Part shown: positions 127 through 41,512 of the stretch, one piece after another
Numbering within the stretch: the first letter of the stretch is position 1
Layout: each line of letters starts with the position of its first letter
Assembly: GCA_031273495.1 (NCBI GenBank)
Contig: JAISRT010000020.1
Location: forward strand, 1 to 41,581
DNA from: Candidatus Ancillula kalotermitis
Lineage (GTDB): Bacteria; Actinomycetota; Actinomycetes; Actinomycetales; Bifidobacteriaceae
Reading direction: 5' to 3'
DNA: 41,581 nt
Notes under the pieces: generated by a model
Seen by the model: the letters and a program-made list of their open reading frames with translations, nothing else
Database searches by the model: none
Told to the model about the DNA's origin: nothing
Made by a program: the position numbers and the translations under genes

Positions 127-252
127 TCACGATAATTCTTGCTCAAACTCCTTGTAGACGCGTTCGAAAACTGCAATCTGCTCATCGACACCCTTCGACT
201 CAATGCCATCGAGCTCTAGTGCAACACGCTTCTCTAAATCATCATCAGTCAT
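127..252 (-). CDS. Small acidic protein, 41 aa, actinobacterial tlyA-neighbour type
   Basis: This short reading frame starts with ATG at 252, eight bases inside the end of ruvB, and stops at 127. The overlap points to translational coupling with ruvB. The product is acidic and helical with no membrane segment. Its second half ([16 protein letters not shown]) resembles the small conserved proteins that precede tlyA in many actinobacteria, which carry a similar PVxEHVxVFExVHxxL pattern. This similarity is from memory and was not searched. Function is unknown. If right, the next gene beyond the left edge may be tlyA or a neighbour. Confidence 0.6.
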
Positions 253-1225
253 GCTTCTCCCTCCAGTACTTCAATCCCAAATCAGTAATAACCCTGCCCG
301 AAGGTGTCCGCGAAATCAATCCCATTCGGACAAGAAATGGCTCAACCCCAGACTCGATAGTGTCTGGTTCTTCACCCAAGGACGCAGCGAGTGTTGAAAT
401 ACCGACAGGCCCACCGTTAAAGCGATTGACCAGCAAGTCAACAATTCGGCGGTCTAGCGCATCGAGCCCGAAATTATCAATACCGTAGAGTTCAAGTGCA
501 GATTTTGCCGCCCGCAGGTCAACATTGCCGTTTCCGTGGACTTCTGCCCAGTCACGCACACGTTTCAGAATCCTGTTCGCTATCCTGGCAGTGCTCCTTG
601 ACCGCTTGCCAATCTCCTCTGCCGCGTCATGCTCTACGTTGATGCCCAGTATCTTAGAGCTGCGTAGAACGATTTTTGCCAAGTCAGCGGGCTCATAAAA
701 ATCCATCTGCCCGACCCACCCAAATCGGTCGAGAAGTGGCCCTGGAAGAAGTCCTTGACGTGTCGTCGCACCAATTAGCGTAAAGTGCGGAAGTGGAAGT
801 GCAATCGAGGAGGCACCGACACCTTTGCCTACCACAATGTCCACTCTGAAGTCTTCCATACCGATATAGAGCATTTCTTGCGCAGGCTTGCTCATTCGGT
901 GAATTTCATCGATGAACAGCACTTCGCCTTCAGTTAGTGCGGAAAGTATTGATGCCAAGTCCCCTGCGTGGGTGAGTGCTGGCCCCGAAGTGATTTTAAT
1001 CGGCACACCCGTAGTGTTCGCGACAATTTGGGCAAGTGTTGTTTTGCCAAGCCCCGGTGGCCCTGAAAACAGGATATGATCAGGAACACCTTTGCGCAAC
1101 ATAGCGGAGTCGAGTATTAGCGACAACTGCTCCTTTATTTGAGCCTGCCCTATGAACTCCTCAAGATTATTCGGACGCAACGACTCCTCCGAGACTTTTT
1201 CAGCTCGGTCAACTGGAACCTGCAT
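245..1225 (-). CDS. ruvB: Holliday junction branch migration ATPase RuvB
   Basis: The product (326 aa, normal RuvB length) is the hexameric AAA+ motor that, with RuvA, drives branch migration of Holliday junctions in recombinational repair. Visible motifs are Walker [10 protein letters not shown] (residues 55-63), Walker B with DEIH (106-109), sensor GATTR, and the arginine-finger region ending LLDRFG. A C-terminal winged-helix DNA-binding part follows, with [12 protein letters not shown] and a final GRVIT. The usual ruvC-ruvA partners are not upstream; a membrane protein gene is. The gene has its own promoter with -10 TATAAT at 1247-1252 and a leader of roughly 15 bases. The downstream small gene overlaps its stop. 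Confidence 0.97.
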
Positions 1226-1246
1226 GGTGATTTCTTCTATACTTCA

Positions 1247-4589: not shown

Positions 4590-4617
4590 TTAACACATCT
4601 CATTTATGGTCTATACT
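4590..4617 (+). promoter_or_regulatory. Leaderless promoter of the sirtuin gene
   Basis: TTAACA (4590-4595), a 16-base spacer and TATACT (4612-4617) are followed by six bases and then ATG at 4624. Transcription would begin at or next to the A of the ATG. A second TATAAT at 4569-4574 could act as an alternative. Confidence 0.75.
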
Positions 4618-4623
4618 GATACC

Positions 4624-5418
4624 ATGAGCACGAAAGTTGATGAACTGCAAAACATACTCGCGCGTTCGAAGAGGACCGTATTTTTCGGTGGCGCTGGCGT
4701 GTCGACTGAGAGTGGGCTCAAGGACTTCCGTAGCGTCGATGGGCTGTATAACGAGAAATACGCATTTGCACCAGAAGTGATCTTATCGAACACATTTTTC
4801 AGGACCAAGACTAAGGAGTTCTTTGAGTTCTACCGAGACAAAATGATACTGACCACTGCGCAACCGAACCCGACACATCTGTATCTCGCGCGGAACCAGA
4901 TACCAGTGATAACGCAAAATATTGACGGACTGCACTCACTCGCGGTGGCGCATGTCAAAGGTGCTGAAGTGAATTACGGCACTCCAGTCGATGACACTAT
5001 CTACGAGCTGCACGGGTCAATACACCGTAACTACTGCACGAAATGCCACAAGTTCTACCCATTGAGCAAGATTATCGAGTCCGCAGGTGAGACGGACGGT
5101 ATTCCGCGGTGCACAAGACTTGTTGATGCGGACGGTGAAATACAGCAGAGGAAATGTAACGCAGTTGTCAAGCCAGACGTGGTGTTATATGAAGAGACGT
5201 TGCATCAGGAGGTGTGGGGTGCTGCAGAGCAGGCGCTGTCACAGGCGGACACTTTAATAGTCGGAGGCACTTCGCTGACTGTTTACCCTGCCGCCAGTCT
5301 TGTGAGTATGTTCAGAGGCGGCACACTAGTGTTGATAAACCGCGACGAAACCGCATTCACTAGTGTTGCGGACCTCGTAATCAGTGAGCCGATAGGTCAA
5401 GTCTTCGCAGGGCTTTAG
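4624..5418 (+). CDS. Sir2-family NAD-dependent protein deacylase
   Basis: The product (264 aa) removes acyl groups from protein lysines using NAD. It shows the NAD-binding GAGVSTESG (23-31), TQNIDGLH around 97-104 and the catalytic His130 in ELHGS. A four-cysteine zinc site (Cys138, Cys141, Cys163, Cys178) and the late NAD-binding motif GGTSLTVYPA follow. The longer start at 4606 was rejected because its ATG lies upstream of and inside the -10 box; the ATG at 4624 sits exactly six bases after TATACT. Normal bacterial sirtuin length. No obvious partner gene is nearby. Whether it is a deacetylase or desuccinylase cannot be decided here. Confidence 0.95.
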   Translation: MSTKVDELQNILARSKRTVFFGGAGVSTESGLKDFRSVDGLYNEKYAFAPEVILSNTFFRTKTKEFFEFYRDKMILTTAQPNPTHLYLARNQIPVITQNIDGLHSLAVAHVKGAEVNYGTPVDDTIYELHGSIHRNYCTKCHKFYPLSKIIESAGETDGIPRCTRLVDADGEIQQRKCNAVVKPDVVLYEETLHQEVWGAAEQALSQADTLIVGGTSLTVYPAASLVSMFRGGTLVLINRDETAFTSVADLVISEPIGQVFAGL

Positions 5419-8600: not shown

Positions 8601-9251
8601 GTTCCGACACCGTAGGACATCCTCTTCACGGTCGCGCAAACACTCCGCTTTATATCTGACTTCTTTGCACTTTTTCGCGTATTCTTTCTCTTTGCGCTTT
8701 GCCTCCCGTTTGAACTCACGCCGGGACGAAACTGTTGACGAAATCATCAGCAGTGGAGACATCAGCATAAACATAGCAGTCATAGGGTTCGGCATCATGA
8801 AATAAAACATCGCGCCCATCATCATCGGCAGCAACACATTCATTAGCGGCAACTTCGGTTTCTTGTCGTCTTTCGGCTTCTGCGGCATCTTGAACTTTTT
8901 CCCCTCAAGCAAAGGTGGTAGCACCGCGCATCGGTTATAGAACTGAATCTGCTTGTTCTTCGCGCTAGAGTCCACTTCGAGAAATTTGTCCGAACCGACC
9001 TCAACGACCTCAACAACACTGCCGTCATATATATGTGCTTGCCGTAGCATTAAGTCTGGCGCTAGACTTTTAGTGCCGCTCTCAGTTAGAACCGCGATAC
9101 TGAGTTTTCGCTCATTTGTAGTATCACTAGGCAGTAGAACCTTCGCGAGCTCGGAAACCTGCAAAGTGGGCTCGGACTCGACAATAATATCTCTAGTGCT
9201 CGCGCGGGCATTCGAGGGTCCCCGCACGACAAGTGTAAGTTTAAGTTGCAT
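5688..9251 (-). CDS. EccC/EssC-like FtsK/SpoIIIE family secretion ATPase
   Basis: The 1187-residue protein has the order seen in type VII secretion motor proteins. A small N-terminal domain (1-110) is followed by two close methionine-rich membrane segments (about 136-172), a charged helix, and a domain without P-loop (about 200-480). ATPase domain 1 has Walker A GGTTGAGKS (523-531) and Walker B LLIVVDE (624-630). ATPase domain 2 has Walker A GKTGAGKT (842-849) and a weak Walker B (VIDRID, about 919). The last domain (about 1050-1187) has no intact P-loop. No WXG100 substrate or other Ecc gene lies nearby. A -10 TAGACT six bases before the ATG suggests leaderless transcription. A role in DNA translocation is possible, but the double P-loop layout favours EccC. 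Confidence 0.9.
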   Translation of the reverse strand: MQLKLTLVVRGPSNARASTRDIIVESEPTLQVSELAKVLLPSDTTNERKLSIAVLTESGTKSLAPDLMLRQAHIYDGSVVEVVEVGSDKFLEVDSSAKNKQIQFYNRCAVLPPLLEGKKFKMPQKPKDDKKPKLPLMNVLLPMMMGAMFYFMMPNPMTAMFMLMSPLLMISSTVSSRREFKREAKRKEKEYAKKCKEVRYKAECLRDREEDVLRCRNPDFDQVHLWQKHSSDPDFLQVRVGVADIDSSVMLDDTPLTLQNVPLLVDLTRGVGLIVDSPLALRRLQGFLLELVTLYSPNDLTIGVLSLGSNPELAWLKWVQNVDTKLCSRSQKSFLGVLQTLVELISERSKLSDAELRQEKVLLIIVENIIDTHWHIIEKLMADGAKLKLHFIFLAGDASTIPFNVRQVVNLQSNVLFDRQKNIKHQYSRCAEADKTSCLNYSRKVCAKRDLSLVPENDQNIPKYISLGDLLHLDAELLGAEICTRWANTDTGTGVKLSAEVGMSANDVVEIDLRKNGPHTLVGGTTGAGKSEFLQTWIASLALNCSPENLNFLLVDYKGGAAFGKCSTLTHTVGMITDLDEHLTSRVLVSLKAELEFREGVLGKYHAKDIVELEEKEGAILANLLIVVDEFAALAKEMPEFVDQIVDIAARGRSLGVHLIMATQRPSGVIKDNLKANTNLRIALRVADENESNDIIGSKDAAGIKRGTPGRLFIKHDTETPVEMQAAYVGYEVGEVKSDVEVYEFELGELTKIQLNQRENSVVKPGTELRDAKSTFLSILVEECNRAASKNNISALRRPWLEPLKDVYLFETSRPHFAILDLPAKQEQVELNICRKNTIVFGKTGAGKTVALESMLLEWALLDNVGTIRGTDVFIIDCSRTKYLPCIQDAFQIVDINDYERIWRLFRAILEDGVKCTLVIDRIDIFRDEFEKPAGTQILSMFNQILANSAGLGVVLAATVARSGGVYNNWLSFFEQRIVLEMSNENEYAFLGINQKNVPLSFVPGRGIFNAQELQISLPEDVPLKHKNRRQIKSLEEASRVADPHQSVIRIDDLSELDIASTLHISDFSALAVCVLGGKRADRKRAANVLKGVLQAGSMREVAVRDIGSSNLEDLGESGVFVIDDSASGDWNAQTKIKKCDLIVCLSLDPAQVGKWTSEDIPQLKYIEKGDSRGYIISSECAVGVQF

Positions 9252-9257
9252 AACACT

Positions 9258-9263
9258 AGTCTA
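9258..9263 (-). promoter_or_regulatory. Leaderless -10 box of the EccC-like gene
   Basis: TAGACT on the minus strand is followed by AGTGTT and then ATG at 9251, the same six-base spacing seen at other starts. No convincing -35 box is visible. Confidence 0.5.
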
Positions 9264-10097: not shown

Positions 10098-10134
10098 GGC
10101 ATGGGCTTCGCCCGCATGCGAATGAAGTTAGTGC

Positions 10135-10140
10135 TATACT
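10135..10140 (+). promoter_or_regulatory. -10 box of the GT2 glycosyltransferase gene
   Basis: GTGCTATACT (TATACT at 10135-10140) is an extended -10 box. Six bases after it an in-frame ATA (10147) occurs, five codons before the ATG at 10162. The spacer ATAGAA equals the one at the acyltransferase gene starting at 33599. Confidence 0.7.
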
Positions 10141-10161
10141 ATAGAAATAGGTACTGATACC

Positions 10162-11127
10162 ATGCGTGAAAACCGTAGTCCTCGGAGCGGTGATGTTTTT
10201 TGTTTGCTAGTGCCCTGCTTTAATGAAGACGAAACCCTGAAAGTTGTTGCCCCCGTGCTGTGCGAGAAGATGGTGGGACTGATTGAGAGCGGTGCAATAT
10301 CTGAAAAGTCATGCATACTATTTGTTGATGATGGCTCCACTGACTCAACGTGGCAAATTATCGAGCACCTTGCGCAAAGTAACCAGATGATCCGTGGGTT
10401 GAAGCTCTCGAGAAATTTCGGACACCAGAACGCACTTCTAGCGGGTATGTCTGCGTCGCTACAATTTTCCGATGTCATCATCAGTATGGACGCCGACCTT
10501 CAAGATGATGTTAACGCAATCGACAAAATGCTCGCTGACTATTCTGCAGGATCCGAAATTGTCTACGCAGTGCGCTCCTCAAGAGAAAGTGATTCTAAGT
10601 TCAAGAAGTCGACTGCGCAGAGTTTCTACAAACTGATGAATGCCCTTGGTGCCTCAGTAGTCTACAATCATGCCGACTTCAGGTTGATGAGCAAGCGTGC
10701 GGTCGAAGAGTTATTGAAGTTTACTGAGGTGAACCTTTTTCTACGTGGGCTCGTTCCACTTCTGGGGTTCAAGAGCAGTAAGGTTGAGTACACTAGAGCA
10801 AAGCGCGTCGCGGGTGAGTCAAAGTATCCGTTAAAAAAGATGCTCAAGTTCGCGTTCGACGGCGTGACGTCATTTTCAGTGAAGCCACTTCGCCTTGTGA
10901 CTATTCTCGGTTTCTTAACGTTTTTCTGTGGTATTTTAGGAACGGTGTATTCAGTTGTGCAATTCTTTCGCGGAGACACTACAATCGGGTGGGCATCAAC
11001 TATCTGTTCGATTTGGTTGCTCGGAGGTGTCCAAATGATTTCCCTAGGGCTGATTGGTGAGTATGTGGGTAAAATATTCAGCGAAACGAAACGACGACCA
11101 CGGTTTATTGTTGAAGAGTTGATTTAA
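10162..11127 (+). CDS. GT2 family polyprenyl-phosphate glycosyltransferase (GtrB/DPM-like)
   Basis: The 321-residue protein has a GT-A catalytic domain followed by two membrane segments (about 242-270 and 277-305). This is the layout of enzymes that move a sugar from a nucleotide carrier to undecaprenyl phosphate. Motifs include PCFNED near 18-23, VDDGSTD (55-61) and DADLQDD (110-116) carrying the DxD metal site. The product would feed extracellular glycosylation, fitting the GT-C-like and acyltransferase genes elsewhere in the window. ATG at 10162 is the first ordinary start, but it lacks a ribosome site; an in-frame ATA at 10147 sits at the leaderless position. Its end overlaps rsmB tail-to-tail by 23 bases. 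Confidence 0.9.
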   Translation: MRENRSPRSGDVFCLLVPCFNEDETLKVVAPVLCEKMVGLIESGAISEKSCILFVDDGSTDSTWQIIEHLAQSNQMIRGLKLSRNFGHQNALLAGMSASLQFSDVIISMDADLQDDVNAIDKMLADYSAGSEIVYAVRSSRESDSKFKKSTAQSFYKLMNALGASVVYNHADFRLMSKRAVEELLKFTEVNLFLRGLVPLLGFKSSKVEYTRAKRVAGESKYPLKKMLKFAFDGVTSFSVKPLRLVTILGFLTFFCGILGTVYSVVQFFRGDTTIGWASTICSIWLLGGVQMISLGLIGEYVGKIFSETKRRPRFIVEELI

Positions 11128-16302: not shown

Positions 16303-16334
16303 AGACCCCTACTTCTACGCGCGGTGGGTTGTGC

Positions 16335-16340
16335 TACACT
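16335..16340 (+). promoter_or_regulatory. -10 box of the acyltransferase gene
   Basis: TTGTGCTACACT is an extended -10 box (TACACT at 16335-16340). Exactly six bases later an in-frame ATC occurs at 16347. No clear -35 box is seen. Confidence 0.65.
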
Positions 16341-16346
16341 ATTGGT

Positions 16347-17366
16347 ATCAACAATACGCAAAGTTTAACTCATAGGTTGGCATTACCCGATGTCCTACGC
16401 GGCGGGGCGATTATCCTTGTTGTCTGCGGGCACAGTTTCCTTCCCTTAGCATCGATGATCCCTAACTATCAACTCGGAATTAAGTATGCTCTGATTTGGA
16501 ACTTCCATATGCCGTTCTTATTCTTTGTCTCTGGGCTTTTTGCATCTCGACTGCTTAAACGAACATTCAAAGATGCGGTAATTCGTAAAGTACGTCAACT
16601 CATTGTGCCGTATTTACTGTTTTCAGCACTCGAAATTACTGTCAACATTTTACTCGGTGGCTTGACAAATACGAAACTTCAACCGATTAACTATTTGACG
16701 ATGTTAGTTCAGCCAGTTCAGGAGATGTGGTTTATTTACGTGTTGTTTTTCTTGTTCATGCTTTATTATGCTATCCACAAACTCTTAGATAAACACTTGG
16801 GAAGCAGTACGAAATTTTCCGTTGAACTTATTTTAGTTGTGCTAGGTTTCATTTTATTTTTTATTGGTAAAGATGTTCAAATATGGGTCATTCCTCAAAT
16901 TATGAATTACTTCGTTTTCTTCACACTCGGTGCGGCAAGTTTCAATCTTCTCAGAAATCCTTCCATAAAGCTTTGGGTAAATATAGTAGTACTGATTCCA
17001 CCTCTTGTTGTTTATGTATTCTTGTGCAAGTTTAACATTTTTATCGCAGACGCGAACCTGCTTCTAGCATTTGGACTGATTCGTACACTATTTGGAATTG
17101 TTACCTTCATCCTTTTATCATTATTGCTGATACGCGTTTCATTGCTCTCAAAGTTTCTACAGTATTGTGGAGTTGCATCAATACTTATTTATTTGCTTCA
17201 GACCTATCCAATGCAAGGGTTTAGGATTATTATCTTCAATGTCACTCATATTCTAAATCCACTAGTATACGAAATTTTCGGGAGTCTTTTAGGTGTTGCA
17301 GTGCCACTAATAATTTACTATTTTTTCAATGGCACAAAAGCATATTCGCTAATTTTTGGCAGATGA
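16347..17366 (+). CDS. Acyltransferase family 3 membrane protein
   Basis: The protein (about 339 aa) has roughly ten membrane segments and the typical start of acyltransferase family 3: LPDVLRG, then the active-site His in VVCGHSF, and later a segment with FLFFVSGLF. Such enzymes move acetyl or other acyl groups from the cytoplasm onto surface sugars. The start is uncertain. No ATG, GTG or TTG lies between the promoter and residue 10; ATC at 16347 sits at the leaderless position, and TTG at 16377 would cut close to the conserved part. The base composition looks richer in A+T than in neighbouring genes. The next gene begins right after a 42-base repeat. Confidence 0.85.
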   Translation: MNNTQSLTHRLALPDVLRGGAIILVVCGHSFLPLASMIPNYQLGIKYALIWNFHMPFLFFVSGLFASRLLKRTFKDAVIRKVRQLIVPYLLFSALEITVNILLGGLTNTKLQPINYLTMLVQPVQEMWFIYVLFFLFMLYYAIHKLLDKHLGSSTKFSVELILVVLGFILFFIGKDVQIWVIPQIMNYFVFFTLGAASFNLLRNPSIKLWVNIVVLIPPLVVYVFLCKFNIFIADANLLLAFGLIRTLFGIVTFILLSLLLIRVSLLSKFLQYCGVASILIYLLQTYPMQGFRIIIFNVTHILNPLVYEIFGSLLGVAVPLIIYYFFNGTKAYSLIFGR

Positions 17367-17408
17367 GCACCAATATGACATACAGTTGTATTAAACTGGG
17401 AGTATGAA
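17367..17408 (+). repeat. 42-base direct repeat carrying a promoter, copy 1
   Basis: These 42 bases are identical to 18978-19019. The copy begins right after the stop codon of the acyltransferase gene. It holds TGACA (17376-17380), an 11-base spacer, TAAACT (17392-17397), six bases and then ATG. So two different genes share one promoter and start. Confidence 0.95.
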
Positions 17409-18969
17409 GTTGTTAACTAGTTTTTTGAGCAGGCTAAAGGTCGAACAGGTCTTTAGACTTAAGTTTTTGGCATTTGTAATACCATTTTGCTGGTATGTGC
17501 TTGTAGATTTTGTCTTCAACCCGATGTGGTCAACAAATGATGGTCATCAACTGGCAGTTTTGACGCATGAATTAGGTACAGCATCTCCACTTTGGGACAT
17601 GCAAACAATCCTGTTTTCCCTCTTCTCTAAGCATTATCTGCCAGCACTTCTTGTCATGTCGCTAGTTTCTGCTCTGTCACTATTCAATTTTATACGGGTT
17701 TACTTAAAGTTCAGCAATTCGTCTACAAAAGAGAGGTGGGCATTCAGTATTATCGTATTTTACAGCCTTTTGCCTGTCTACTGGACATTCAACGCATCAT
17801 TCTTTCCGTCAACAAATTATCTTCCGCTAGGGCTTTTTCTGCTATCATTCCTGTTTGAGATTTACCACATTAGGGCAGCATTCTTCTCGCAGTTTCATAA
17901 AGTTGTATTGCTGGCTCTAGTGTTGTTCTGGATTTCTGAAACTCGGCGTGACGCTATGTATGCAGAGTACTTAATGGCATTAATATTTGCGCTAGTGTTT
18001 TTCCTTTCGAAACGGTATCGAACAAATCAAGGTGTATACAGTGAAATCATAGTAGATGAGCTGACGAATCATCATGGCGGAAAAGCTACACTAGTGGTGC
18101 CGACCGGGGCTACAACAAATGTCAGGGGGGGCTTCAATGTAAAGCGTCGAATTTTATTTGGTAAGATTCTACTCATTGTTCTAGTACTCAGTTTCAGTTT
18201 CAGTTTTGCGCAAGTCAGAAGTGTGCTCGGTGTGCCGGTTGCTGATCCCGCAGGTGCGGACTGGGTCTCAACAGGTGTAAGTGTCCCAATTATGATCGAC
18301 GCGAAAGCAATACTCGACAGTCCGAATCTCGAGTATATTTCATACGATGATAACAAGTGGTTCGAGGATCATGGCTTTAACCTCGAATGCCTAAAAGGAT
18401 TTAGGCCCAATATCTCTGACCCAATCAAAGGTTGTTATGTTCTTGCGATGACAAAATATCAAGCGTCGCAACAGGAATTCTTGAGACGAAGTTTGAATGT
18501 AGCTTTTTACCACCCAGAGCATACAATGACAACTTATTTGACATTTATTCGCCCACTTATCGATCCGACATATGAGTTATTCGGACTACAGAATTGGGTC
18601 GCTGCTGGCTGGAAAGATGTGGATGTCTGGATGCGTGACCTTGATGTAAACGCTAACTGTAATAAAATTTGTCAGATGTTTGACTTCGCTGCTCGAGCAA
18701 CTTTCAGGGTTCCAATTCTGAGCGTATTAATTTCAGCAGGAGGTGTCCAAATTTTTGCGTTTATCGTTTGTTTATTTGTCGGGATCCGTAAAAAGAAATA
18801 TGCACCTTTACTCTTTTTCACACCACTTATGTGCAGTTATGCCGTTCTAGCAGTTTCCGCACCAGTGCAACTTCCAGTCTATTCATATTTGGGCATCGTG
18901 ATGGCCCCATTAGCCGTAATCCTGTTTCGAGAAGAAGTTCGGCAAAAGCCTAGTTCTGATGTAGAGTAA
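17404..18969 (+). CDS. Polytopic membrane protein, GT-C glycosyltransferase-like
   Basis: This 521-residue protein has about ten membrane segments. A large outside part (about 270-440) carries paired cysteines (CLKG, CYVL, NCNKICQ). An early ND motif (MWSTNDGHQL) lies after the first segment, and SETRRDAMY lies between segments. These features are typical of GT-C glycosyltransferases that use lipid-linked sugars, perhaps the DUF6020-like group, but the assignment is tentative. The ATG lies six bases after a -10 box inside the 42-base repeat. The gene is bounded by the two repeat copies, so recombination between them would remove it and leave purC with an intact promoter. Confidence 0.8.
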   Translation: MKLLTSFLSRLKVEQVFRLKFLAFVIPFCWYVLVDFVFNPMWSTNDGHQLAVLTHELGTASPLWDMQTILFSLFSKHYLPALLVMSLVSALSLFNFIRVYLKFSNSSTKERWAFSIIVFYSLLPVYWTFNASFFPSTNYLPLGLFLLSFLFEIYHIRAAFFSQFHKVVLLALVLFWISETRRDAMYAEYLMALIFALVFFLSKRYRTNQGVYSEIIVDELTNHHGGKATLVVPTGATTNVRGGFNVKRRILFGKILLIVLVLSFSFSFAQVRSVLGVPVADPAGADWVSTGVSVPIMIDAKAILDSPNLEYISYDDNKWFEDHGFNLECLKGFRPNISDPIKGCYVLAMTKYQASQQEFLRRSLNVAFYHPEHTMTTYLTFIRPLIDPTYELFGLQNWVAAGWKDVDVWMRDLDVNANCNKICQMFDFAARATFRVPILSVLISAGGVQIFAFIVCLFVGIRKKKYAPLLFFTPLMCSYAVLAVSAPVQLPVYSYLGIVMAPLAVILFREEVRQKPSSDVE

Positions 18970-18977
18970 GATATATT

Positions 18978-19019
18978 GCACCAATATGACATACAGTTGT
19001 ATTAAACTGGGAGTATGAA
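18978..19019 (+). repeat. 42-base direct repeat carrying the purC promoter, copy 2
   Basis: Identical to 17367-17408. It holds TGACA (18987-18991), TAAACT (19003-19008), six bases and the purC ATG at 19015. Confidence 0.95.
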
Positions 19020-19902
19020 AAGCATTGACGACTGGGAAAAGATAGCTGAGGGGAAAGTGCGCGAGCTTTACGCCCCAAAGTTCGAACACCCCAAAGGTGA
19101 TGTCATTCTTGTTGTTGCATCGAACCGCATTTCAGCATTTGACTTCATTCTCGACGCTGAAATCCCACTGAAAGGTGCAGCATTGACACGGAGTTCAGTC
19201 TTCTGGTTTTACGAAATTGAGGAGAACTTAAACATCCCAACGCATTTTATTAGTGTAGATGACGAGAGTATTCCCGAAGTTTTTCGCGGGCGGGCAATGC
19301 TTTGTAAGAGGCTTAAAATGATTCCGGCTGAGTGCGTTGCACGTGGTTTCTTAACTGGGTCTGCATTTCAAGAATATGCGAAGACTGGTAAGTTCCAAGA
19401 GTTTGACTTGCCTTCTGGGCTAAAGGACGGCGCGAAATTAGACAAACCGATATTCAGTCCAGCGACGAAAGCGGCAGTGGGTGACCATGATGAAAACATA
19501 TCGTTTGACACCTTAGCAGAAATAATTGGTGAGGAACTTGCTGAGAAGTTGAGAAGCACGACACTTAAAATCTTCGAGTTCGCTAGTAAGAAATGTGAAG
19601 AAGTAGGTCTAACTCTAGTTGATACGAAGTTTGAATTTGGCATTGACCCAAGTAATGGTGAACTAACGCTTGGAGATGAAGCCCTGACGCCAGATTCGAG
19701 CAGATATCTAGACGAAAACGCAAAAAGTTTCGACAAGCAGTATGTTCGCGATTGGTTGTTGAACGAGTCAGGATGGGTAAAAGAGTCTGGGGATAAACCA
19801 CCAGCGTTGCCACACGACGTGGTCGGACAAACTTCGGAGCGTTATTTAGACCTGTTGCAGAGGTTTTGGTTGAGCATAAGTGAAGGCAAGAAAGAGTGGT
19901 AG
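19015..19902 (+). CDS. purC: SAICAR synthase PurC
   Basis: The product (295 aa) joins aspartate to CAIR with ATP in purine synthesis. Conserved pieces are GKVRELY near the N-terminus, SNRISAFD, the ECVARGFLTGSA signature, DTKFEFG and LGDEALTPDSSR. Length is that of the longer PurC type common in actinobacteria. Other pur genes are not nearby. The ATG sits six bases from TAAACT in the repeated promoter, so the mRNA is probably leaderless. rpiB follows after 39 bases. Confidence 0.97.
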   Translation: MKSIDDWEKIAEGKVRELYAPKFEHPKGDVILVVASNRISAFDFILDAEIPLKGAALTRSSVFWFYEIEENLNIPTHFISVDDESIPEVFRGRAMLCKRLKMIPAECVARGFLTGSAFQEYAKTGKFQEFDLPSGLKDGAKLDKPIFSPATKAAVGDHDENISFDTLAEIIGEELAEKLRSTTLKIFEFASKKCEEVGLTLVDTKFEFGIDPSNGELTLGDEALTPDSSRYLDENAKSFDKQYVRDWLLNESGWVKESGDKPPALPHDVVGQTSERYLDLLQRFWLSISEGKKEW

Positions 19903-19941
19903 ATTTTTTAGTATGAATGTTAGTGAAGTTAGGAGAGAAAA

Positions 19942-20394
19942 ATGAAAATAGCAGTTGCATCAGATCATGCAGGTATTGACCTGAAGTTGCCAATGTTGGA
20001 GGTCTTGAAGGAGAGGGGTATAGAGTTCACTGATTTCGGGACTCATGACCATAATTCTACTGACTATCCTTCTTGGGGTGAGCTTGTTGGCAAAAAAGTT
20101 GCGAGCGGTGAGTATGAAAAGGGGCTGCTGTTTTGCGGAACGGGAATTGGTATTTCACTGGCAGCAAACAGTGTGAAGGGAATCCGTGCGGTTGTCTGCT
20201 CAGACGTCTTTAGCGCGAAAATGAGCAGGGAGCATAACAATTGCAATATTCTTTCTCTTGGAGCGCGCGTCGTCGGGGTTGGCTTGGCAGCAGAGATCCT
20301 TAACGCTTGGCTTGATACCGATTTTGAAGATGGTGGGCGTCATCAACGGCGTGTTGACATGTTGATTGACATTCAGGACGAGAATATGAAGTAG
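19942..20394 (+). CDS. rpiB: Ribose-5-phosphate isomerase B
   Basis: The product (150 aa) interconverts ribulose-5-phosphate and ribose-5-phosphate. It starts MKIAVASDHAGIDLK and carries the catalytic region LLFCGTGIGIS with the active-site cysteine, plus SREHNNCNILSLGARV. An AGGAGAG ribosome site precedes the ATG. It lies just behind purC; both feed nucleotide synthesis, so co-transcription makes sense. A short hairpin follows its stop. Confidence 0.96.
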   Translation: MKIAVASDHAGIDLKLPMLEVLKERGIEFTDFGTHDHNSTDYPSWGELVGKKVASGEYEKGLLFCGTGIGISLAANSVKGIRAVVCSDVFSAKMSREHNNCNILSLGARVVGVGLAAEILNAWLDTDFEDGGRHQRRVDMLIDIQDENMK

Positions 20395-20411
20395 ACTGCC
20401 CTGTTGGCAGT
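20395..20411 (+). terminator. Hairpin after rpiB
   Basis: ACTGCC and GGCAGT flank a 5-base loop directly after the stop codon. The stem is perfect but no long T-run follows, so it is only a candidate terminator between convergent rpiB and rlmN. Confidence 0.4.
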
Positions 20412-20480
20412 GCGACCTTTGTGCAAATCTCGGCTGCGTTCTCGGCTGCGTAGCGCGTTGAACATCATAGTTGTGCCCTG

Positions 20481-21617
20481 TCAGCTGTCACTCAGCGCGG
20501 CAAGTTGTCCGCATGCGCCGTCGATGTCCTGACCACGTGACTCTCTTAGGGTTGTCTGTATGCCTCGGGATCGTAGCGTTTCCAGAAAGGTCGATGTAGC
20601 AGAATCAGTTGATGCGGTCCATGGCGAGCCCTCCACGTTGTTGAGCGGTATCAAGTTGACATGCACCCAGTTTGACCCTCGTCTATTTAGTATCTTTGCA
20701 AGGGTGTTGGCATGTTTTTCCGAGTCGTTAACATTCAGCATTAAGGCGTATTCAATCGAAACGCGCCGCTTCTTAGTCTGGTAGTATTGAAAAGCAGCGT
20801 CTAGCACAGTATCTAAGTCATACTTCTTGTTGATTGGAACGAGTTTGGACCGCAGTTCGTCAGTTGGTGCGTGCAGTGAAATTGCAAGCCGCAGAGGAAA
20901 CTTGGCTTCGGCAAGACGGTTTATTCCTGGAATAATGCCTGAAGTGGAGATTGTTACGTTTCGTGCAGGAATCCCAAAGTTCGGACGCGCAGTTTGCGTT
21001 CTGACTGTTGTGGTTGAGTCGTCAGTGTGGTTGATAGATGGCGCACAGATTTGCTCGAGTGCTTCAAAAATGTTGTCGAGGTTCTGCGTCGGCTCACCCT
21101 CACCCATAAAAACAATGTTCGTTAGTCGTCGTGGCTCATAAAGCGTGTGGACATCAGATGTGTTAGGGCCAAATTTTGCTGGAGAAGTGAGCGACCTGGC
21201 AGCAAAAAAGACTTGTTCGATGATTTCGCGTGAAGAAAGGTTGCGCTTGAAACCTAGCTTACCAGTTGCACAAAACGGACACCCGATGGCGCACCCAACC
21301 TGGCTCGAAATACATAGCGTTGCGCGATCAGGATATAGCATCAACACTGACTCGATGAGGTTACTATCTTGAAGGCGAAATAGTGTTTTTATCGTCTTTC
21401 CCTCATCGCCTATCTGCTGCTTTAGCGGTTCCAGCACCTGAGGAAACGCCACTTCACATAACTCTGGCGCCAGTTTCCCTATGTCAGACATGTCACGCGG
21501 GTCAATGCTAAGGTGTTCAAAATAGTGCACTTCGAGCTGCTTAGTGCGCAGTTTGGCTTGGCGTTCATCTCTGAACAGCGAGGGCGCTGATGCGTAGAGT
21601 GCATGATAATCTAGTAT
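20481..21617 (-). CDS. rlmN: Dual-specificity 23S rRNA/tRNA adenine-C2 methyltransferase RlmN
   Basis: The radical-SAM enzyme methylates A2503 of 23S rRNA and A37 of tRNAs. Numbered from the ATA at 21617, the product has 378 residues. The cluster motif CAIGCPFC gives Cys109, Cys113 and Cys116. FMGEGEP and a C-terminal Cys in GACGQL are also present. The N-terminal part RTKQLEVHYFEHLSID is typical of actinobacterial RlmN. The start is odd: TATAAT (21624-21629) is followed by six bases and then ATA, in frame. ATG at 21606 is out of frame, and the next in-frame ATG is inside the conserved domain. GTG codons exist only at or upstream of the -10 box. Confidence 0.93.
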   Translation of the reverse strand: MLDYHALYASAPSLFRDERQAKLRTKQLEVHYFEHLSIDPRDMSDIGKLAPELCEVAFPQVLEPLKQQIGDEGKTIKTLFRLQDSNLIESVLMLYPDRATLCISSQVGCAIGCPFCATGKLGFKRNLSSREIIEQVFFAARSLTSPAKFGPNTSDVHTLYEPRRLTNIVFMGEGEPTQNLDNIFEALEQICAPSINHTDDSTTTVRTQTARPNFGIPARNVTISTSGIIPGINRLAEAKFPLRLAISLHAPTDELRSKLVPINKKYDLDTVLDAAFQYYQTKKRRVSIEYALMLNVNDSEKHANTLAKILNRRGSNWVHVNLIPLNNVEGSPWTASTDSATSTFLETLRSRGIQTTLRESRGQDIDGACGQLAALSDS

Positions 21618-21623
21618 GAAGTC

Positions 21624-21652
21624 ATTATAGCACACGCACACCCCCACGTCAT
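21624..21652 (-). promoter_or_regulatory. rlmN promoter
   Basis: ATGACG (21647-21652), a 17-base spacer and TATAAT (21624-21629) preceded by TGC. Transcription should begin close to the ATA at 21617. Confidence 0.75.
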
Positions 21653-21670
21653 CCCACCGCCGCCCAGCGT

Positions 21671-21842
21671 GGCATAAAGCCAAGGGCAGGCGCGGGCTTG
21701 TCCGTCCCCTGTCATCCCTCATGGATACACTGCCTCCTCATGTCATCCCTCGGCATAAAGCCAAGGGCAAGCGCGGGCTTGTCCGCCCGCTGTCATCCTT
21801 GGGCTTGTCCGTCCCCTGTCATCCTTGGGCTTGTCCCGAGGA
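21671..21842. repeat. Palindromic elements, tandem copies
   Basis: Two direct copies about 47 bases long start at 21671 and 21752. Each runs GGCATAAAGCCAAGGGC, then CGCGGGCTTGTCCG, then CTGTCATCC. GTCATCCTTGGGCTTGTCC follows at 21792 and again at 21818, the last continuing CGAGGATC. These are the same words as at 5462-5640 and 9500-9682. The region 21723-21921 has no supportable gene. Confidence 0.85.
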
Positions 21843-21921
21843 TCTATCGCACACACTCCGCGTCGCAACGCCTCCCGCGGCGGTAAATCACCACGCTCGG
21901 GGTTACTCCGCTAGTCACACA

Positions 21922-32338: not shown

Positions 32339-33599
32339 TTTTTTCACCTCCCGATTTTTTGTCTGATGTATATTTGTCAAGCAGATTTTTCAAATTCTCA
32401 TCAAGTTCAACAATAGGCTCTACTTTAGCCAATCCTTCTGCCAGTGAATTTGGCGTCACTATATCGAATTTCTTTGTATTACGCGGATGCCGGACACGCT
32501 GCAGAATGGGGTGTTCAACAAAAATCCAGCTGAGAGTCGCGAATATCACGGTAAGTTCGATAGTTGTGATGATATAGAGCCAAATCGGCGGTTGTGGTAT
32601 ATAATGGTTGATGACAAACACCATAATTATCTGCTGGAAGACCCATCCGTAAATGTAAACGCCATACGAGATGTCATTTTCACTTGTCAATTTGCCGAGT
32701 TTGCCGAATGTGCACGAATTGCTGAACCAGAGTAGAAAATATGTCGCGAAGGGTGCGATAAAGCCAAGTTTATTCTCGTTCATTTCGGGGACTAAAACTA
32801 AATACGCGATGCAAACCAACGCACAAATCAGTGCCACAATCCAGTATAGTTTCTTGACCTTCTCCTGAATCAAGTAGACAAGCGTTCCGCCGAGGAAAAT
32901 CGGGACGAGTCGCACCATAATTTGGAAAACGTTATGCCCAGTAATTGGTTGAGATGATGGGTCCCAAAGTATAAAGCGTGAAAATGTGAACTGCCCTATA
33001 ACACCTGCTGCCCAGATAATTCCTATTGCCCACTTATTGCGCGTGACCACCCAACTCAACAGCAGTCCAACGATTAAGTAACACGAAAACTCATAAAACA
33101 GCGTGTAGAGCGGTCCGTTCCAAGTGTGCACCACTGGGGTGTCAACAAGTGTTTTGCCAATGCCGTAGTGGTCCTGCCAGAGTGAAAGCGTTAAATTCTT
33201 TAATAGATAACTAAGTGGAGTGGGCTCCTCAGACATATAGCCCTTCAGGCTGCCGTCGTTGATGAGCTTCGCGAGCGGTGCGAAGAGTATAACTACCAGA
33301 ACCTGGATCACTAGAAATGCAGGATATATGCGCGCAATCCGCTTGACAAGGTAGTTGCCTAGATTAGTGTGCATACGGCTTGATGCGATTAAATAACCCG
33401 AAATGCAGAAGAACCCCGCCACTGCCCAGGAACCCAAGTCGACGCCGAGCACTTTCGGGGGCTTTCCGTATCCGCCGAGGATGAACGCGTGGGAAACGAT
33501 AACCAGTAGTGCAAGAAAAAGGCGCACGAGGTTCAGGGAGTTCCGTTTTGTGTTGAACTCCTTATTTAGGTTGATCTGTTTCTTGTCTGCTGCAGTCAT
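32304..33599 (-). CDS. OafA-like acyltransferase family 3 membrane protein
   Basis: The product (431 aa) has about ten membrane segments and the family 3 motifs: RNSLNLVRLFLALLVIVSHA with the active-site His, GFFCISGYLI and KRIARIYPAF. A long cytoplasmic tail (about 365-431) is lysine-rich at its end. It lacks a fused SGNH domain, which is supplied by the next gene. The ATG at 33599 lies six bases after TACACT; an apparent earlier TTG start lies in the promoter and was rejected. It heads the operon of five overlapping genes down to 26077, probably for building and acylating a surface polymer. Confidence 0.92.
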   Translation of the reverse strand: MTAADKKQINLNKEFNTKRNSLNLVRLFLALLVIVSHAFILGGYGKPPKVLGVDLGSWAVAGFFCISGYLIASSRMHTNLGNYLVKRIARIYPAFLVIQVLVVILFAPLAKLINDGSLKGYMSEEPTPLSYLLKNLTLSLWQDHYGIGKTLVDTPVVHTWNGPLYTLFYEFSCYLIVGLLLSWVVTRNKWAIGIIWAAGVIGQFTFSRFILWDPSSQPITGHNVFQIMVRLVPIFLGGTLVYLIQEKVKKLYWIVALICALVCIAYLVLVPEMNENKLGFIAPFATYFLLWFSNSCTFGKLGKLTSENDISYGVYIYGWVFQQIIMVFVINHYIPQPPIWLYIITTIELTVIFATLSWIFVEHPILQRVRHPRNTKKFDIVTPNSLAEGLAKVEPIVELDENLKNLLDKYTSDKKSGGEKNGKTAPSSSRK

Positions 33600-33605
33600 T
33601 TCTAT

Positions 33606-33633
33606 AGTGTAGCACAACTGTGTGTCATGTTAA
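33606..33633 (-). promoter_or_regulatory. Leaderless promoter of the envelope operon
   Basis: TTAACA (33628-33633), 16 bases, TACACT (33606-33611), six bases (ATAGAA) and ATG. TGACA is also present 11 bases before the -10 box, and the stretch ATGACACACAGTTGT is nearly the same as ATGACATACAGTTGT before purC. Confidence 0.85.
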
Positions 33634-36793: not shown

Positions 36794-36804
36794 ATCAGTT
36801 CTGC

Positions 36805-36810
36805 TACACT
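36805..36810 (+). promoter_or_regulatory. acpS -10 box
   Basis: TACACT in TTCTGCTACACT, an extended -10 box. Six bases later (ATAGAC) comes the ATT codon at 36817 that begins the conserved AcpS sequence. Confidence 0.75.
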
Positions 36811-36816
36811 ATAGAC

Positions 36817-37362
36817 ATTCGACTTGGAAACGGCGTAGATTTGGTCAACATTGGCAGTTTTGCCGACGTGTTGACTTCGGATGCTGGCGCCTGGAAGAGG
36901 ATGGTGTTCACTGGGAACGAGTTGCGCGACGCGTTGACAAGGCCGTCAGAATTTGAGACACTGGCAGGGAAGTGGGCAGCGAAAGAGGCGTTTGTCAAGG
37001 CGTGGTCAAGCTTCGAGATTGGAGTGCCACCCAAAATCCCCGACAACCTCTGGAGCGAGATTGAGATTCTCCGAGATGTGTATTCTAGACCGCTAATCAG
37101 GTTAACTGGCAGGACAAAACGTGCCTTCGAAGAGGAGCACCCCAACGCCACCATCACGCTATCGATTTCACACGACTCCGCCCCCCACGACACTCCGCAC
37201 GCAGCGCACCCACTAGCGCAACAGTCCGCACCCCACGCCTCGCAGTCCACGCCTTCCGCAAGCTGCGTGTCCAACATTACTGCGCCGTCAGTGCCGCCAG
37301 TGACAGTCCCTGAAGGCTATGCAATCGCACAAGTCATCATCATTCACCCCCATTCACTCTAA
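36817..37362 (+). CDS. acpS: Holo-[acyl-carrier-protein] synthase AcpS with an internal insertion
   Basis: The enzyme moves 4'-phosphopantetheine from CoA to acyl carrier protein. Numbered from the ATT at 36817, the product has 181 residues. The N-terminal motif LGNGVDLVNI carries the metal-binding Asp8, KWAAKEAFVKAW (52-63) carries Glu57, and SISHD (116-120) and GYAIAQV (167-173) close the fold. Between the last two lies about 46 residues rich in Ala, Pro, Ser and His that other AcpS proteins lack. The first ordinary start (TTG 36841) would remove Asp8. Upstream, an in-frame stop at 36784 limits the choice to ATT or ATA. It overlaps ptrB tail-to-tail by 23 bases. Confidence 0.93.
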   Translation: MRLGNGVDLVNIGSFADVLTSDAGAWKRMVFTGNELRDALTRPSEFETLAGKWAAKEAFVKAWSSFEIGVPPKIPDNLWSEIEILRDVYSRPLIRLTGRTKRAFEEEHPNATITLSISHDSAPHDTPHAAHPLAQQSAPHASQSTPSASCVSNITAPSVPPVTVPEGYAIAQVIIIHPHSL

Positions 37363-39571: not shown

Positions 39572-41484
39572 ATATCCACTCTTTCTTCAGGTGCAACATA
39601 CATCCCATCGCCTGGCTTGACGTCGAATGCCACCTGAAATGCATCAAGGTTACGCACAGTGTTCGCTCGAAACTCAGCAGGGGAGTGCGGGTCTATGGCA
39701 AGTAATGTGGTAGCGAACTCGTCAGTCGCCTTATTCCGCCAGAGCAGTGCGAACGCCTCGAAGAACTTCTGCACGCTAAATCGGTCTGCAAGGAGTAGTT
39801 CATCAATTGTTTCGAAGCCACGTGCTATACTATAGGAAAGCAATGCGATTTTCAGTCCTGCGAGGTCTCCCACGTTCTCGCCAGTAGTCAATTTGCCGTT
39901 GACATGTGCATCAGGATTACCTTCAAGTTGGAGTGGGACAAATTTATCAAACTGTGCATTGAGTTTATCTGTGAGTGCGTTAAATTTCGCTTTGTCCTCT
40001 TCGAGCCACCAGTTCTCAAGTTCACCATCTCCGCCGTATTCTGAGCCTTGATCGTCAAAACCGTGCCCAATCTCGTGCCCAATAACTGCACCAATTCCGC
40101 CGTAATTTTCCACTTCTGGGCGGTTCGGGTCAAAGAAGGGGGGCTGAAGAATCGCCGCTGGGAAGACTATCACATTTTCTGGTGGGTTATAATACGCGTT
40201 CACAGTCTGTGGTGTCATATGCCAGAGCAGTTTGTCCACTGGCTGCCCGATTTTCTTGCACTTTTCCGAATAGTTGAATCTGAGGTAGCTGAGCATATTT
40301 TCCCAGAGTGCGTCCTGAAACTGCAGGTCGGAGTAGTCATGCCAGTGCTTTGGAAGCCCAATTTCATAGGTGAACTTACTCAACTTGACTAGCGCCTTCT
40401 CCTTCGTTTTACTTGACAGCCACTTCGCCTCGCCAATACTCTTTCGATACGCCTTAATCAGATTTTCTACAAGGTTCTCCATTTGTTCACGCGCTTCTGG
40501 TGGGAAGTATTTCTCGACATACACTTGCCCAATTTCGTCACCGCAGAATGAATTGACAAGCGAGACACCCTTTTTCCAGCGCGGCGGCTCAGTTTGCATA
40601 CCCGAAAAGATGCGTGTGTATTCAAATTTGAGCGCTTCTGCCTTTTCCGTCAAAACATTTGCAAACGCCTCTACTAAATGACACTTTGCCCAGTTCTTCC
40701 ACTCAAGAAAATGTTCAGCATTCCATAGTGTTTGCATATTTTCGAAAAAGTCTACTTGGTTAATGTCAACAACAGTGTCACCGTCCACTTCGGTATACAA
40801 CTCATCTAAATGGAAATCGGCAAGCAGACTGCAGGCTTGCGAAAATAGCATCGGGTTATGGGTTTCCTGCACAATTCGGCACCTCGCGGCATCCCAATGT
40901 AACTTGGCAATCGCGGACTCAAACTTGAACACTTTCGCCGCGTCCGCACTCAGGACTGTCCCAGTGCAGATGTAGTCAACTAGATTCTGCAGTTTCGTAG
41001 TCGCTAACTCACGTAGTTCTTGATACTGCGGCTCACGATAATACGACTCGTCTGGCAAGCTCAACCCCCCTTGCGCAAAGTGCAAAGTGTTAAAGTCTGG
41101 GTTGTCGAGGTCGTTGTAGACATCAGCCCGCAAGGGTAGGAGCCCGAAAGTGCTATAGTTCTTCACTAGCCAATCGTTCAAGTCACCCCAGCTCGCGAGA
41201 TTCTCCACTTCTGCGAGCAGTTCAACTAGCGGTGCAACTCCTCGTGTTTCAATGGCATCGACATCCATATAGCTTGAATACAGCCGAAAACTCAGTGGTA
41301 TTGACCCTTGGGACCCACTATCCTCAAGCAACTCGCGCTGCACTTTTAATGACTCCTCGGCAAGTATGTCGAAACTTCCCCAACGAGGCTTATCGCTCGG
41401 GATTGTCGTATTCTCCAGCCACTCGCCATTTACCGCACGGAACAAATCATCTTGCGGACGCACTTTTTCTACATATTCACTCAT
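39565..41484 (-). CDS. M13 family zinc metallopeptidase (PepO-like)
   Basis: The 639-residue product is a neprilysin-type endopeptidase without a membrane anchor, the form found in lactobacilli and actinobacteria. The zinc motif HEIGHGFDDQG lies near residue 470, with the third ligand Glu in GENVGDLAG near 534. Substrate-binding VNAYYNPPENVIVFPA lies before it. It probably degrades oligopeptides to feed ptrB products. TATACT lies six bases before the ATG, so the mRNA is likely leaderless. It is the first gene of a two-peptidase operon. Confidence 0.95.
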   Translation of the reverse strand: MSEYVEKVRPQDDLFRAVNGEWLENTTIPSDKPRWGSFDILAEESLKVQRELLEDSGSQGSIPLSFRLYSSYMDVDAIETRGVAPLVELLAEVENLASWGDLNDWLVKNYSTFGLLPLRADVYNDLDNPDFNTLHFAQGGLSLPDESYYREPQYQELRELATTKLQNLVDYICTGTVLSADAAKVFKFESAIAKLHWDAARCRIVQETHNPMLFSQACSLLADFHLDELYTEVDGDTVVDINQVDFFENMQTLWNAEHFLEWKNWAKCHLVEAFANVLTEKAEALKFEYTRIFSGMQTEPPRWKKGVSLVNSFCGDEIGQVYVEKYFPPEAREQMENLVENLIKAYRKSIGEAKWLSSKTKEKALVKLSKFTYEIGLPKHWHDYSDLQFQDALWENMLSYLRFNYSEKCKKIGQPVDKLLWHMTPQTVNAYYNPPENVIVFPAAILQPPFFDPNRPEVENYGGIGAVIGHEIGHGFDDQGSEYGGDGELENWWLEEDKAKFNALTDKLNAQFDKFVPLQLEGNPDAHVNGKLTTGENVGDLAGLKIALLSYSIARGFETIDELLLADRFSVQKFFEAFALLWRNKATDEFATTLLAIDPHSPAEFRANTVRNLDAFQVAFDVKPGDGMYVAPEERVDIW

Positions 41485-41490
41485 ATTTCA

Positions 41491-41512
41491 AGTATACTGC
41501 GCTAGTATGTCA
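41491..41512 (-). promoter_or_regulatory. Leaderless promoter of the peptidase operon
   Basis: TGACA (41508-41512), 11 bases, TATACT (41491-41496), six bases (TGAAAT) and ATG on the minus strand. Confidence 0.75.

Follow-up and report, generated by a model that had tools for sequence, protein, structure and literature searches.

The window, the whole stretch of 41,581 nt that was analysed, is on contig C44 of genome G000, a metagenome-assembled genome (MAG) of 1.07 Mb in 62 contigs that is 81% complete. By RlmN, the closest named relative of G000 is Candidatus Ancillula (51% identity), a match that does not establish the genus. Candidatus Ancillula is a symbiont of termite-gut flagellates and belongs to the GTDB family Bifidobacteriaceae (PMC11707648). 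The G000 bacterium itself in all likelihood lives as a symbiont of unicellular termite-gut organisms. Three genes in the window have a proposed AUH start (AUA, AUU or AUC) exactly 6 nt past an extended -10 box, and two others have ATA at this position.

36802–36810, plus strand: extended -10 box of acpS, TGCTACACT, read from the sequence
36817–37362, plus strand: acpS (NCBIfam AcpS), AUU start at 36817, exactly 6 nt past the box; forced start
16332–16340, plus strand: extended -10 box of the acyltransferase gene, TGCTACACT, read from the sequence
16347–17366, plus strand: acyltransferase gene (Acyl_transf_3, Pfam PF01757 from residue 15), proposed AUC start at 16347
21624–21632, minus strand: extended -10 box of rlmN, TGCTATAAT, read from the sequence
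20481–21617, minus strand: rlmN (NCBIfam RlmN from residue 14), proposed AUA start at 21617
10132–10140, plus strand: extended -10 box of the GT2 gene, TGCTATACT, at the end of a dispersed repeat
10147–11127, plus strand: GT2 gene, ATA 10147 at the leaderless position and ATG 10162 five codons on; start undecided
245–1240, minus strand: ruvB-like gene, TATAAT, 6 nt, ATA 1240, and ATG 1225 five codons later; start undecided

The geometry of the three AUH genes, pointed out in the first-pass annotation, is present in the sequence as TACACT-ATAGAC-ATT in acpS, TACACT-ATTGGT-ATC in the acyltransferase gene and TATAAT-GACTTC-ATA (minus strand) in rlmN, in frame in each case. The ATA of the GT2 gene was also correctly placed five codons ahead of the ATG. 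The further statement that no normal start lies between box and conserved protein holds for acpS and rlmN, but not for the acyltransferase gene, where an in-frame TTG (codon 11, approximately position 16377) precedes the first Pfam-matched residue (15) and provides an alternative start. In acpS the previous stop is 11 codons upstream, and there is no ATG, GTG or TTG from this stop to the conserved protein. Residue 3 aligns with position 3-4 of the NCBIfam AcpS profile, and the orthologues in two sister genomes (G001 and G003) have an ATG start a few codons earlier. On the reading of its frame, the AUU start of acpS is forced, and it is the strongest of the three window cases. In rlmN there are no canonical starts between the ATA and residue 14; canonical codons exist upstream, both within the promoter and 5' of it. 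The AUH starts of rlmN and the acyltransferase gene are likely, not forced, and neither is decisive taken alone.

Six other window genes have ATG at the same spacing, as had been listed in the annotation (the sirtuin ATG is at 4624).

4612–4626, plus strand: sirtuin gene, TATACT, 6 nt, ATG 4624 (leaderless AUG)
9249–9263, minus strand: EccC-like gene, TAGACT, 6 nt, ATG 9251
17392–17406, plus strand: GT-C-like gene, TAAACT, 6 nt, ATG 17404
19003–19017, plus strand: purC, TAAACT, 6 nt, ATG 19015
33597–33611, minus strand: second acyltransferase gene, TACACT, 6 nt, ATG 33599
41482–41496, minus strand: pepO, TATACT, 6 nt, ATG 41484

A nearly identical stretch of about 40 bp, caccaatatgacatacagttgtattaaactgggagtatgaa, is found ahead of the GT-C-like gene (17361–17406) and purC (18978–19017), and it looks as if the promoter had been duplicated.

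For the genome-wide scan, 1.056 Mb of G000 was taken as stretches, and 853 genes were called by our own hexamer model; the AUH curation was likewise our own. The extended -10 box TGNTANNNT followed by 6 nt and a triplet was sought near each 5' end, in the frame of the gene and in the two other frames, and the strict box for counts was TG[CT]TANA[AC]T. Approximately 150 of the 853 genes have an extended -10 box similar to TGCTATACT, exactly 6 nt and an in-frame codon. The spacing between box and ATG peaks at 6 nt, with 131 in frame and 12 out, which meets the criterion for leaderless geometry. A logo of positions -22 to -1 displays the extended -10 consensus only and no Shine-Dalgarno (SD) sequence. 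With the strict box and 6 nt, the numbers in frame and out of frame (two other frames pooled) are 106/0 for ATG, 8/0 for GTG, 13/6 for ATT, 15/12 for ATA, 4/1 for ATC, 4/5 for GTA and 2/1 for GTT; no TTG or CTG was found at this position in the G000 scan. The search for a box, six bases and an in-frame AUN that had been proposed in the annotation thus gives 106/0 for AUG and, for AUH, 32 in frame vs 19 in the two other frames together. Nine of these 19 are 'AT-ATG', in which a leaderless AUG follows after two bases, and four are 'A-TTG'; most of the remaining six lie in leadered genes that have an SD and a start downstream. Since 13 of the 19 are of the AT-ATG or A-TTG type, the true background is about 3 per frame. 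The in-frame excess of AUH relative to triplets other than RUN (purine-U-any base) has a Fisher P of 6e-5. No UUG, CUG, ACG, AAG or other non-RUN start occurs at box + 6, and the AAG-like cases then have a normal start.

Six in-frame AUH codons with a likely downstream start were taken out of the set: atpA, ruvB, the window GT2 gene, C10 21929, C30 4043 and C43 9154. The ruvB-like window gene is not counted in the curated AUH set. The GTT of rpsD (C13 43254) was rejected together with atpA, later starts being likely for both. The curated set contains 27 leaderless AUH starts (13 AUA, 10 AUU and 4 AUC), and there are five supported GUH starts (GUA or GUU), which are those of argC, thiL, ksgA and nadE (GTA) and tyrA (GTT). 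About one-fifth of the apparently leaderless genes seem to start with AUH or GUA/GUU and not with AUG, an estimate from sequence that neither protein nor RNA data back so far.

The AUH genes have housekeeping functions. By NCBIfam, the AUH/GUH genes include tpiA, ispF, coaBC, proA, lepA, argC, tyrA, trpE, priA, tilS, metF, an acyl-CoA dehydratase activase, ispG, thiL, glgX, ksgA, nadK, nadE, cinA/pncC, nadB, rsmG, prfB, an ECF sigma factor and others, as well as acpS. Twelve lack any in-frame ATG, GTG or TTG between the preceding stop and the first residue matched by the family profile and are forced starts (lepA, tyrA, priA, tilS, the ECF sigma factor, metF, the activase, ispG, glgX, acpS, cinA and prfB). 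Some family profiles begin at the proposed start itself: residue 2 matches profile position 2 in coaBC and tyrA, residue 2 matches position 1 in ispF, and residue 3 matches position 3 in acpS. The mean hexamer coding score per codon is -0.74 upstream of AUH and +0.23 past it, and the corresponding values at AUG are -0.81 and +0.24. Coding signal sets in at AUH no less sharply than at AUG. This coding switch is supportive but not independent, because the AUH set was partly picked for being in frame.

The N-termini of 28 AUH/GUH genes served as queries against three congeneric genomes (G001, G002 and G003). In metF there is an ATG in the exact column in G001 and G003, and in coaBC there is an ATG in G002. 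In sisters the start is a leaderless ATG for rsmG, nadK, glgX and the activase, and for argC and nadE it is either GTG or ATG, again leaderless. The same box in the partial sisters (291 kb of G001 and 180 kb of G003) is followed by 36 RUG and one AUH, vs 114 and 32 in G000 (Fisher P = 0.004). These counts imply that AUH starts are peculiar to G000 or its nearest relatives, with the reservation that the sister samples are small and have a lower GC content than G000.

Genes led by an SD sequence provide a control within the same genome. SD-led starts in G000 number 151/9 in and out of frame for ATG and 32/30 for AUH. The in-frame AUH codons after an SD are mostly 'ATA ATG' and were thus rejected as starts. 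This leaves at most three plausible SD-led AUH starts in about 184 genes, two of which have a TTG alternative. AUH represents approximately 18% of leaderless starts vs at most about 2% of SD-led starts, and with 28 and 3 AUH counted the difference has a Fisher P of 2e-8.

The translation machinery that was examined (IF3 and the initiator tRNA candidate) shows nothing that explains AUH use. In the initiator tRNA candidate, the anticodon stem is the usual GGG/CCC and the loop reads CTCATAA. An altered initiator tRNA was rejected as the cause, the candidate being ordinary in appearance, with the qualification that its 5' end is lost at a contig end. Loss of IF3 was also rejected, as IF3 is present in G000 (C28 5089–5751, locus L028). 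It is among the most divergent of its family and, at the site equivalent to E. coli Arg99, carries Lys instead of the Arg of the three sisters; one order-level relative has Ser there. Lys also replaces Gly in the DYGK motif, unlike in the sisters. The R99L/R131P mutants of IF3 have a relaxed-fidelity phenotype. IF3 antagonises the selection of leaderless starts, and infC mutants with flexible codon choice raise this selection (PMC9031893). The Lys at the Arg99 position is only a lead, its effect being unknown. In mitochondrial-type AUN initiation, a modified anticodon of tRNA-Met lets AUA be read as Met. A tilS gene and three CAU tRNAs were found in G000, as expected if AUA is read as Ile; tRNA modifications are invisible in sequence. 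The tilS gene (C24 14626, locus L024), whose product makes the AUA-reading tRNA-Ile, itself apparently starts with AUU.

The explanation that best fits these data, and which we consider probable, is initiation at the 5' end with fMet-tRNA at a leaderless RUN, the third base of which is not proofread; no transcription start site (TSS), ribosome-profiling or N-terminal peptide data are available for it. The promoter would place the 5' end of the mRNA at the codon, a TSS at +1 being inferred. Ribosomes, probably 70S by inference, would then start with the ordinary initiator fMet-tRNA at the 5'-terminal purine-U-any base; fMet as the amino acid inserted at AUH is also inferred. AUG would be preferred, AUA, AUU and AUC accepted, and GUA/GUU used more rarely, besides GUG, while AUG is retained with hardly an exception in the SD-led genes of this cell. 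Point mutation of an ancestral AUG or GUG, in a small symbiont population whose leaderless initiation tolerates a third-base mismatch, is the most likely source of the AUH codons, an origin that is likewise inferred.

These genes could instead start elsewhere. AUH would then merely reflect a tendency of TSSs to fall on an A followed by T, and translation would use ATG, GTG or TTG codons upstream or downstream. The six in-frame AUH cases removed for a likely downstream start are of this kind, and rlmN and the acyltransferase gene have other canonical codons within the open frame. As an account of the whole set it is improbable, however, as the 12 forced cases leave no canonical codon to be used, and the in-frame excess, the coding switch and the orthologue starts concur against it. 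A relaxation of start proofreading in all initiation, e.g., by an altered IF3, which would make AUH merely more visible in leaderless genes, would accommodate the possible SD-led AUH starts (up to three) and the divergent IF3 with its Lys. We regard it as a possible but doubtful explanation, in that the share of AUH is so much lower in SD-led than in leaderless starts, and Arg to Lys is a conservative change of unknown effect; relaxed proofreading by IF3 remains an inference. Errors in sequencing or assembly, or RNA editing at the base level back to AUG, have to be mentioned for a genome that is a MAG, but can be given hardly any credence. The cases are spread over many contigs and affect leaderless start codons in their third base alone, with no damage to reading frames or to other start codons. 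We know of no RNA editing system for restoring AUG at such codons.

The first-pass annotation had suggested that 5'-end position rather than codon identity sets initiation, with any AUN accepted. This inference is supported by the in-frame and out-of-frame counts, the coding switch, the forced starts, the orthologue starts and the SD-led control, and needs three changes. GUA and GUU are also used (tyrA, argC, nadE, ksgA and thiL), so 5'-RUN fits better than AUN. The first two bases matter, no UUG, CUG or other non-RUN being found at that position, so codon identity does play a part. The AUN codons are also not equal. As a start, AUH probably falls short of AUG, given that some six leadered promoters tolerate a 5'-AUH out of frame and none an AUG. 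UUG starts apparently have a 1-nt leader (box + 7) and never occur at box + 6, e.g., C39 12993 (dxr) and C14 15310; the rule is therefore not purely positional. Whether a 5'-terminal position and a purine-U doublet are enough for a start, as a 5'-RUN rule (AUN and GUN) separate from the AUG-based rule of SD-led genes and convergent with mitochondria, we consider an evenly balanced question.

The leaderless genes of G000 are similar to those of mycobacteria and other Actinobacteria in that many genes have a -10 box that precedes the start by a few bases, no SD and a 5'-terminal start codon (inferred in G000). In mycobacteria any mRNA beginning with AUG or GUG is translated, no other leaderless start codon is used, and leadered genes accept AUU (Shell et al. 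2015, PMC4633059). G000 has the reverse pattern, with AUH/GUH in leaderless genes and hardly in SD-led genes, and the mycobacterial restriction to RUG is not met by its 27 AUH and 5 GUH curated starts, 12 of them forced. In E. coli leaderless mRNAs reportedly need AUG (PMC9031893). The closest analogue is found in human mitochondria, where AUA and AUU starts are present only on transcripts without a 5' UTR (PMC5771143). G000 meets this restriction, its leaderless state being inferred from promoter position; unconventional starts are tied to an absent 5' UTR in both, which thus work alike, by analogy and not by kinship. Unlike G000, the mitochondrion is an organelle whose mRNAs are few and whose genetic code and set of initiation factors differ, and AUC, GUA and GUU are outside that description. 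In leaderless genes of Deinococcus, a -10 motif precedes the ORF by 6-7 bp, and the examples in the portion of the source available to us have ATG or GTG (PMC12340547). The geometry is that of G000, with only ATG/GTG starts exemplified in that portion. Judging by the title of a 2010 paper by Baudet and colleagues, D. deserti, which is rich in leaderless genes, is said to use non-canonical initiation codons, and these may be a partial precedent. The infC gene of E. coli has an AUU start, as a single SD-led and autoregulated gene. G000 shares AUU as a start; unlike infC, it has a leaderless class of unrelated genes, and its AUH codons are preceded by a -10 box and not by an SD. A switch from AUG to AUU is very rare in bacteria, with one in 61,358 ancestral AUG starts (PMC5622118). 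A literature search turned up no account of bacteria with a class of leaderless AUH genes.

It is an unsolved problem why leaderless translation should be restricted to AUG in E. coli and to RUG in mycobacteria. G000, which by inference from sequence tolerates any third base, and its sisters, which keep AUG/GUG at the same genes, provide a direct comparative handle on how the start codon is enforced without an SD. They also offer a parallel in bacteria to the AUN starts of mitochondria. In such genomes, about 30 gene starts would be misplaced or missed by standard gene callers.

The repeat ahead of the GT2 gene, which ends in TGCGAATGAAGTTAGTGCTATACT, is found at window positions 10117–10140 and at about 40 other sites in the genome. 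It has an extended -10 box at its end and is directly ahead of many leaderless genes, and the sequence past the box is unique; the repeat may spread promoters. AUH as a by-product of this repeat was rejected: it is present at some AUH genes, but many have no repeat, and many copies precede ATG. Other intergenic repeats, of the form 'cggcataaagccaagggtgacat / gggcttgtccgtcccctgtcatcc', are common and are present at window positions 21650–21860 and in other intergenic regions.
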